Position numbers and translations under genes: made by a program. From assembly GCF_947492555.1 (NCBI RefSeq), contig NZ_CANLNE010000001.1, positions 1,054,001 through 1,118,000 on the forward strand: a DNA stretch of 64,000 nucleotides. Reading direction: 5' to 3'. The notes under the pieces were generated by a model. The model ran no database searches. It had not been told where the DNA came from and saw nothing but the letters and a program-made list of their open reading frames with translations. Below, piece after piece: positions 28,116 to 30,645 of this stretch (within the stretch, counting starts at the first letter, position 1; the number at the start of each line of letters is the position of its first letter). This DNA comes from an uncultured Roseobacter sp. Its GTDB lineage: Bacteria > Pseudomonadota > Alphaproteobacteria > Rhodobacterales > Rhodobacteraceae.

Positions 28116-30410
28116 TCAACTACACTTGGAGTACCCACAGCTCCCACAAGTCATACACCCCTCAACCATGCGCAGATCGTATTGGCCGCAACTGCCGCAC
28201 GCCTGACCTCGCGGCGCATCCAGGCCAACAACCTGCGCCTGCGGGTCGGACTTCAAGCCCATACCCTCACCTTCGATGAAGCCTGTTGCGATCATATGCT
28301 GCTCAATCACACCGCCAATCGCTGCGAGAATCGACGGAATGTATTTCCCCTGCATCCATGCCCCACCGCGGGGATCGAACACGGCCTTCAGCTCTTCGAC
28401 GACGAATGAAACATCACCGCCACGACGGAACACTGCCGAAATCATTCGCGTCAAGGCGACAGTCCACGCAAAATGCTCCATGTTCTTGGAGTTGATAAAC
28501 ACCTCGAACGGCCGCCTGCGCCCGCCCATCACAATGTCATTGATGGTGATGTAAAGCGCATGTTCGCTATCAGGCCATTTGACCTTATAGGTATTGCCCT
28601 CCAACCCGTTCGGCCGGTCCAGCGGTTCCGACATATAGATGACATCGCCATGCGGCGTTGCCGGCTCTGCGTCTGAATTGGTGATGACTTCCGGTGCGTC
28701 TGCGGACGGCTTTTCCTCTGAAACACTCAAAACAGAACCGGTAACCGCATTCGGCCGATAGGTTGTGCAGCCTTTACAGCCTGTGTCCCAGGCTTGCATG
28801 TAGACATCTTTGAAGGCGTCGAAACCGATATCTTCCGGGCAGTTGATCGTCTTGGAGATTGAACTGTCCACCCATTTTTGAGCGGCAGCCTGCATCTTCA
28901 CGTGATCCAAGGGCGCCAGCGTCTGGGCGTTCACAAAGTAATCCGGCAGTTCCGCATCCCCGAATTTCTCACGCCATAAGTTCACCGCATAGTCCACCAC
29001 TTCTTCTTCCGTACGTGACCCATCTTTCTGCAGGACCTTGCGGGTGTAGGCATAGGCAAAAACAGGCTCGATCCCCGACGAGACGTTCCCGGCATAAAGG
29101 CTGATGGTGCCCGTGGGCGCTATCGAGGTCAGCAGCGCGTTGCGAATACCATGGGCACGGACCGCGTCACGCACGTCTTCATCCATCATCTGCATGGTGC
29201 CGGACGCAAGATACCCTTCCGCATCAAAAAGTGGGAAGGCCCCCTTTTCCTTTGCCAAATCCACCGACGCCAGATATGCGGCGCGGGCGATCCGGTGCAG
29301 CCAGTCCTCCGTCTGACGCGCCGCCTCGTCGGACCCATAGCGCAAGCCGACCATCAGCAACGCATCGGCCAGCCCCGTCACCCCTAGCCCGATACGCCTT
29401 TTTGCCCGCGCTTCCGCAGCCTGTGCCTCTAGCGGGAACCTGGAGGCATCGACCACATTGTCCATCATCCGGACGGCCGTGGCGACAAGCCCGGTCAATG
29501 CATCCACATCCAGTGCGGCACTCTCTTCAAAGGCATCTTTGACAAGGCGCGACAGATTGATGGAGCCCAGAAGGCAGGCACCGTACGGCGGCAAGGGCTG
29601 CTCGCCACAAGGATTGGTTGCCGCAATCGTTTCACAATAGTTCAGGTTGTTGGCGGCATTGATCCGGTCAATGAAAATGACCCCTGGCTCCGCATAATCA
29701 TACGTCGCCTGCATGATCCGGTTCCACAGATCCAACGCGCGCACGGTCCGGTACGTCTTGCCATCAAAGGATAGCTCCCAAGCCGCATCCGCCTTCACTG
29801 CATCCATGAAGGGATCCGTGACCAGCACGGACATGTTGAACATCCGCAGCCGCGCCGGATCTGACTTGGCCGCAATAAAGTCCTCGATGTCGGGGTGGTC
29901 ACAGCGCATCGTCGCCATCATCGCGCCGCGGCGCGACCCGGCGGACATGATCGTGCGGCACATGGCGTCCCAGACGTCCATGAAACTCAACGGGCCAGAG
30001 GCATCCGCGGCCACACCCTTCACATCCGCGCCCTTGGGCCGGATCGTCGAGAAGTCATAGCCGATCCCACCGCCCTGCTGCATGGTCAGCGCGGCCTCTT
30101 TCAGCATGTCGAAGATACCCCCCATGCTGTCGGGCACCGTCCCCATGACAAAGCAGTTGAAGAGGGTCACAGACCGCGCAGTCCCCGCCCCCGCCGTGAT
30201 CCGGCCCGCGGGCAGGTATTTGAAATCTTCAAGAGCCGCGTAGAACTTCTCTTCCCAGTGATCGGGCTTTTTCTCGACCCGCGCCAGATCCTTGGCGATC
30301 CGCCGCCAGGTATCTTCGACAGTCGCATCCTTCGGCGTGCCGTCGGCGTCTTTGAAACGGTACTTCATATCCCAGATCTGTTCGGCAATCGGGGCGGAAA
30401 AGCGGGTCAT
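28116..30410 (-). CDS. nrdJ: adenosylcobalamin-dependent (class II) ribonucleotide reductase
   Basis: LFNCFVMG, NPCGEQPLPPYGACLLGSINLSR, C-terminal CGSCGQYDLRMVEGCMTCGSCGYSKCS. Confidence 0.96.
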   Translation of the reverse strand: MTRFSAPIAEQIWDMKYRFKDADGTPKDATVEDTWRRIAKDLARVEKKPDHWEEKFYAALEDFKYLPAGRITAGAGTARSVTLFNCFVMGTVPDSMGGIFDMLKEAALTMQQGGGIGYDFSTIRPKGADVKGVAADASGPLSFMDVWDAMCRTIMSAGSRRGAMMATMRCDHPDIEDFIAAKSDPARLRMFNMSVLVTDPFMDAVKADAAWELSFDGKTYRTVRALDLWNRIMQATYDYAEPGVIFIDRINAANNLNYCETIAATNPCGEQPLPPYGACLLGSINLSRLVKDAFEESAALDVDALTGLVATAVRMMDNVVDASRFPLEAQAAEARAKRRIGLGVTGLADALLMVGLRYGSDEAARQTEDWLHRIARAAYLASVDLAKEKGAFPLFDAEGYLASGTMQMMDEDVRDAVRAHGIRNALLTSIAPTGTISLYAGNVSSGIEPVFAYAYTRKVLQKDGSRTEEEVVDYAVNLWREKFGDAELPDYFVNAQTLAPLDHVKMQAAAQKWVDSSISKTINCPEDIGFDAFKDVYMQAWDTGCKGCTTYRPNAVTGSVLSVSEEKPSADAPEVITNSDAEPATPHGDVIYMSEPLDRPNGLEGNTYKVKWPDSEHALYITINDIVMGGRRRPFEVFINSKNMEHFAWTVALTRMISAVFRRGGDVSFVVEELKAVFDPRGGAWMQGKYIPSILAAIGGVIEQHMIATGFIEGEGMGLKSDPQAQVVGLDAPRGQACGSCGQYDLRMVEGCMTCGSCGYSKCS

Positions 30411-30433
30411 GGGTGCAGGTCCTCAAGTTGATT

Positions 30434-30534
30434 TGGGCGCCACGACAGGACTTGAACCTGCAACCTTCTCACATTAGTCTTCCGAAACGCCAATCTCGGC
30501 CTCGTGAGCGCTCTTCCAATTGAGCTACGCGGCG
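30434..30534 (-). tRNA. tRNA-like gene with encoded CCA and oversized (31-nt) anticodon loop; isotype undetermined
   Basis: Acceptor CGCCGCG/CGTGGCG, D-arm GCTC-AATTGGAA-GAGC, stem CTCAC/GTGAG, T-arm GCAGG-TTCAAGT-CCTGT, 3' CCA. Confidence 0.6.
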
Positions 30535-30536
30535 AA

Positions 30537-30570
30537 CTCTCCGATTACACAAAAGGGTGTGATCGGAGAG
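30537..30570. repeat. 14-bp inverted repeat CTCTCCGATTACAC-AAAAGG-GTGTGATCGGAGAG
   Basis: 13 Watson-Crick pairs plus one G-T, ending 2 nt from the tRNA-like 5' end. Confidence 0.85.
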
Positions 30571-30598
30571 TATATTTACCCTAGATTCGTCCTGTTTT

Positions 30599-30645
30599 CC
30601 ACAACAAGTTGAAGGTCAACCAGGCCAAACTAATATATATAGTGT
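30599..30645. promoter_or_regulatory. candidate NrdR-box pair (strong at 30630..30645, weak at 30599..30614)
   Basis: CTAATATATATAGTGT matches 13/16 of recalled ACACWATATATWGTGT; CCACAACAAGTTGAAG about 9/16; offset 31 bp. Confidence 0.5.

Follow-up and report, generated by a model that had tools for sequence, protein, structure and literature searches.

A tRNA-like element with an extended anticodon arm upstream of nrdJ in a Roseobacter, and related elements in other Alphaproteobacteria

Some tRNA genes are co-transcribed with mRNAs, as in tRNA-tufB and secG-leuU, and in tRNA-mRNA transcripts the tRNA body is cut by RNase P and 3′ processing enzymes. In tRNA-tufB and secG-leuU, processing of the embedded tRNA would set the mRNA ends, as is proposed here for a tRNA-like element (TLS) upstream of nrdJ; however, the tRNAs of those transcripts decode, whereas the TLS cannot. 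The T-box, which reads tRNA, and the cobalamin riboswitch (nrdJ uses B12) are likewise structured leaders, but neither has an Rfam match in the TLS leaders, where the leader itself is tRNA-shaped.

Roles of tRNA-shaped RNAs outside translation are already known. The Bacillus cereus pseudo-tRNA tRNA-Other, which adjoins a genomic island, was reported to be non-functional in translation and is thought to act in trans (PMC3399842); unlike the TLS it has a Trp anticodon, and the accessible part of that report mentions neither an extended arm nor a link to nrdJ. Viral tRNA-like structures also represent tRNA mimicry within messenger RNA, but, as far as the accessible part of the source goes, they are viral, mostly located at 3′ ends and of a different architecture (PMC5723415). 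A search of mainly open-access literature returned no description of the element itself.

The element of the window and its surroundings

The window, that is, the whole stretch of DNA analysed, comprises 64,000 nucleotides from an uncultured Roseobacter sp.; the features around nrdJ are the following, with positions counted from the first letter of the window.

28116..30410, minus strand: nrdJ, adenosylcobalamin-dependent ribonucleotide reductase, 764 aa (TIGR02504, 588.9 bits)
30415..30428, minus strand: ACTTGAGGACCTGC, probable ribosome-binding region of nrdJ, with complementarity to the T arm of the TLS (GCAGGTTCAAGT)
30434..30534, minus strand: TLS, 101 nt (ARAGORN, Rfam tRNA; orthologue in the same-genus genome G002)
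30434..30437, minus strand: discriminator C73 and encoded CCA
30438..30444, minus strand: acceptor stem, 3′ strand, CGTGGCG
30445..30461, minus strand: T arm, GCAGG-TTCAAGT-CCTGT
30468..30472, minus strand: anticodon stem, 3′ strand, GTGAG
30473..30503, minus strand: 31-nt insert replacing the 7-nt anticodon loop
30504..30508, minus strand: anticodon stem, 5′ strand, CTCAC
30528..30534, minus strand: acceptor stem, 5′ strand, CGCCGCG (C1:G72)
30536..30571, minus strand: 10-bp hairpin, ACTCTCCGAT...ATCGGAGAGT, absent from 17 same-genus relatives
30574..30604, minus strand: putative nrdJ core promoter, TTGTGG...GGTAAAT (by eye)
30630..30645, minus strand: ACACTATATATATTAG, NrdR-box-like

Both ARAGORN, a check named in the preliminary description, and the Rfam tRNA model return a tRNA fold of 101 nt in which the loop insert is 31 nt long (Rfam, 41.3 bits, E 2.4e-5, cut-off 29 bits); the cloverleaf has a 7-bp acceptor stem and D and T arms, and it is the sole tRNA called by ARAGORN in the window, with a meaningless anticodon label ("Leu gag"). 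The preliminary description is confirmed for coordinates and strand, for the acceptor stem, the CTCAC/GTGAG stem and the T arm, for T8, A14 and G18G19, and for a loop of 31 nt, a variable region of 6 nt and an encoded CCA. Among the tRNAs of the same genome, tRNA-Arg(CCU) comes closest to the body of the TLS, at 82% identity when the anticodon arm is disregarded; with it, as with tRNA in general (RF00005), the TLS shares the acceptor, D and T arms, T8, G18G19 and the encoded CCA. In the minimum-energy structure the 31 nt of the loop fold onto themselves; the fold energy is no better than that of shuffled sequences (z -1.05), so that it is the tRNA model and the conservation, and not free energy, that make the case for the TLS.

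The TLS differs from RF00005 tRNA in the features that serve decoding and in its location in an mRNA leader. In place of the 7-nt anticodon loop with U33 required of a decoding tRNA it has a loop of 31 nt, and U33 is absent from every reading of that loop, which extends to all of them what had been noted earlier for the 3′-most one. The discriminator is C73, and no isotype can be assigned; the presence of C73 in none of the 28 ordinary tRNAs of the window genome argues against a decoding role. Misregistration of an ordinary tRNA was excluded, since no 7-nt loop fits with either program. Replacement of a missing isotype was also considered and no evidence was obtained for it, the loop holding no GUA. 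As a separate observation, tRNA-Tyr was not recovered in the window genome, either in the tRNA list or with a pattern allowing 2 mismatches, probably an effect of search sensitivity or of the assembly.

The TLS ends 23 nt upstream of the nrdJ ATG, and no terminator was found in this gap; given this spacing and the terminator result, TLS and nrdJ should share a transcript. On the far side of the TLS a DUF1489 gene diverges from nrdJ. The 10-bp hairpin lies one base 5′ of the TLS and is part of the same insertion. The putative core promoter is kept, as judged by eye, in a number of relatives, some with the TLS and others lacking it; a consensus promoter scan returned none. Farther upstream, ACACTATATATATTAG resembles an NrdR box.

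Conservation, recurrence and covariation

All of the 19 same-genus genomes sampled contain nrdJ; the TLS was found upstream of it in the window genome (G000) and in G002, and is absent from that position in the other 17. The two copies differ at 1 of 101 positions and nowhere in the loop (0/31), the sole change turning G5-U68 into A5-U68 with the pair kept, versus 89 of 384 fourfold sites of nrdJ (23%); the promoter region differs at 9 of 193 positions. Recombination between the two genomes could have reduced the TLS difference, although the DNA flanking the TLS is 5-9% different. By these sequence comparisons the element is conserved and not decaying. On the contrast of 1/101 with 89/384 a recent pseudogene or strain-specific junk was rejected; together with the covariation across genera, the same contrast disfavours the recent pseudo-tRNA listed among the options of the preliminary description.

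A pattern in which a long gap separates a type-I D arm from a following T arm, and which holds no information on nrdJ, matched a Roseovarius locus (L183); there, a strong hairpin comes first, next a TLS of 101 nt whose loop has 31 nt, and then nrdJ. Among 397 Rhodobacteraceae genomes it matched a TLS just before nrdJ in G278 (L340), while the third match, in G406, was not of the TLS kind; in both L183 and L340 the element lies 20-30 nt upstream of nrdJ, on the same strand. Inspection of the regions upstream of nrdJ in Rhodobacteraceae added copies in G307, G287 and G078, the last one at 175 nt from the gene. Thus, the TLS is located directly before nrdJ in Roseovarius and three more genera, and at 175 nt in a fourth; the architecture is common to these genera, but the sequences differ. 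The Rfam tRNA scores of the copies in G278, G307, G287, G078 and G002 are 41-55 bits. CCA is encoded in most TLS and is replaced by CACA, CTAA and TCAA in three nrdJ copies. Most nrdJ genes have no upstream TLS, and hence nrdJ does not need it. A separate feature of G278 is an open frame of about 37 codons with a long inverted repeat, located between DUF1489 and the TLS (L340, about 1371-1484).

The same pattern found TLS in Bradyrhizobium (L120), Flavimaribacter (L159), Elioraea (L162) and a member of Rhizobiaceae (L191). A covariance model built from eight TLS sequences was run over 385 genomes of the class, where the three top-scoring matches and one lower match were long TLS (L492, L493, L494 and L518); a further one, L526, came from the model search of the family genomes. 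In L159, L162, L191, L493, L494, L518 and L526 the element is about 30 nt or less from the end of the neighbouring gene, with a slight overlap in L494; the reading frame upstream of L120 and L492 is either broken or overlapping. The scanned neighbours of non-nrdJ copies match HTH_36/DnaD_N, HTH_3 or DndB/DpdB, that of L494 lying below the cut-off and that of L526 being assigned by eye from its sequence. The window copy has the tRNA body, an anticodon loop of at least 31 nt and conserved pairing, and adjoins nrdJ on the same strand; it is one of a sporadic group in Alphaproteobacteria, located before nrdJ or after DNA-binding or DndB-like genes.

Covariation, which the preliminary description had proposed as a check on the fold, is strong. 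In the eight-sequence alignment 94.7% of the cells pair and 15 of the 26 pairs have changed on both sides (0/500 shuffles), a signal that is destroyed by sliding the pairing partners; in an 18-row alignment of 16 long TLS and two ordinary-length tRNAs, which is fitted to the model and so leans that way, 97.3% are paired and 21 of 26 pairs have changed on both sides. Loop lengths range from 31 to 46 nt, and C73 is present in 11 of the 16 TLS. In most copies the lower stem of the anticodon arm, of 6-7 bp, is separated from the upper one by a 5-nt bulge on one side only, UNC[U/G][A/G]; this motif keeps a fixed offset in 11 of the 16 TLS (shuffle mean 0.54, maximum 4), and, since it was spotted in the first eight, the later ones are a better test, although the model that found them contains the motif. 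The bulge is absent in the window copy and in G002 and doubtful in L183, and the family model scores the window copy and its G002 orthologue (63.3 bits) below an ordinary tRNA-Arg of the same genome (66.9 bits). Both are assigned to the family on the basis of position, of fold and of L183 as an intermediate, and not of the bulge motif.

Rfam 15 families other than tRNA, including riboswitches and leaders, gave no match above cut-off to the TLS copies scanned. An origin from phages or plasmids was rejected: phages had no match, plasmids had short matches to the 3′ half only, and viral contigs had none for the loop.

A proposed role in the mRNA leader and its alternatives

As the shape, and not the sequence, is kept in unrelated bacteria, the TLS appears to be an RNA element, so far unrecognised, that uses the tRNA fold, and not a defective tRNA. 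It is somewhat probable that it represents a conserved, non-decoding tRNA-like element embedded in the 5′ leader of the nrdJ mRNA and processed by tRNA enzymes. Among the options listed in the preliminary description, a tRNA mimic acting as an nrdJ leader gains from the recurrence before nrdJ in unrelated genera, from the conserved fold and from the lack of room for a separate terminator or promoter. More tentatively, the group may constitute a family of tRNA-like RNAs that has not been described before: embedded in mRNAs, non-decoding and equipped with a purpose-built extension of the anticodon arm (5-nt UNCUA-type bulge), they would serve Alphaproteobacteria as a module for processing or regulation, both of nrdJ and of genes of small DNA-binding proteins.

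According to this proposal, the TLS would be transcribed together with the neighbouring gene, and tRNA-processing enzymes would recognise the body, with its acceptor, D and T arms, and cut it out, RNase P acting at the 5′ end and, at the CCA end, either RNase Z/E or exonucleases. Excision would leave an nrdJ mRNA that starts about 23 nt before the ATG, while at the non-nrdJ loci the upstream mRNA would end just past the stop codon; the extended anticodon arm would block decoding and may offer a binding site. If true, the tRNA fold would be reused as a cis element in bacterial mRNAs, and the TLS would provide a case in which the setting of protein-coding mRNA ends by tRNA-processing enzymes can be tested, at a gene of DNA-precursor synthesis. 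Such elements are easily overlooked, as annotation software can label them as ordinary tRNAs with a false anticodon.

The weakest step of the mechanism concerns the window copy, in which the T arm might pair instead with the nrdJ ribosome-binding region, so that nrdJ could become accessible to translation once the TLS folds or is cut. In the window leader this alternative fold is predicted to lie 9.7 kcal/mol below the TLS fold (3/150 shuffles); in the other nrdJ leaders with a TLS the energy gaps are not clearly beyond those of shuffles, hence the switch is at most local, and it was rejected as a property shared by all nrdJ copies. For the window copy it stands as a weak idea. The motif ACTTG overlies the ribosome-binding region in 3 of 6 TLS lineages versus 4 of 147 without TLS (p 0.001, with small numbers).

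Alternatively, the TLS may be the remnant of a mobile island, namely a tRNA-like attachment or cargo sequence of integrative elements, carried with a helix-turn-helix gene, left upstream of nrdJ and kept passively. The window copy is indeed an insertion relative to the 17 congeners, and the surroundings of several relatives resemble islands, with HTH_36 genes before the element and with a tRNA, recombinase and IS3-type transposase nearby (L526, L159); passive keeping, however, explains neither the contrast between 1/101 and 23% at fourfold sites nor the covariation and the repeated placement before nrdJ with different sequences, and this origin is considered unlikely. As regards L526 itself, a frameshifted HTH_36-like gene lies directly before the TLS on the reverse strand, and recombinase- and IS3-type transposase-like frames together with an ordinary tRNA mark an island edge.

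It is quite unlikely that the TLS is an independent gene for a trans-acting small RNA, with nrdJ as a chance neighbour: a tRNA-like body would make a stable small RNA, and a non-translating pseudo-tRNA with phenotypes is known (PMC3399842), but the TLS is repeatedly found 20-30 nt before nrdJ, on the same strand and with no terminator between them.

Removal of the 24-39 extra nucleotides by splicing, giving an ordinary decoding tRNA, is very unlikely, even though nothing is missing from the tRNA body, ARAGORN allows an intron to be placed, archaeal short-intron tRNAs matched the same search pattern and the first 7 loop nucleotides (CTTNCTA) include U33 in several relatives, because the window loop lacks U33 in any reading, position 37 is U or G in the relatives (a normal product has U33 and a purine at 37), the implied anticodons vary among them (UUC, UAC, UGC and UCC), C73 is foreign to the tRNAs of the window genome, no bulge-helix-bulge site was seen and loop length is variable. 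A tRNA splicing endonuclease is not known from bacteria, which also counts against it. The intron-like insertion offered in the preliminary description is thus disfavoured.

The pattern also matched sequences of other kinds. The archaeal matches mostly look like ordinary short-intron tRNAs, and many viral and Firmicute matches fall in groups other than the TLS. A second group of tRNA-like sequences with a long anticodon loop occurs in Firmicutes (L113, L128, L138, L164, L168, L190, L205 and L211) and in viral contigs (L230, L237, L241, L260 and L270), often from Lachnospiraceae and phages; many of its members share a hairpin followed by (A)CAGCAA in the loop. In addition, genes resembling tRNA-Ile(UAU), in which the loop has the normal 7 nt but the variable arm is long (about 22-24 nt), were observed in viral contigs (L222, L224, L225, L226, L244, L252, L253, L275 and L294) and in L142 and L151.
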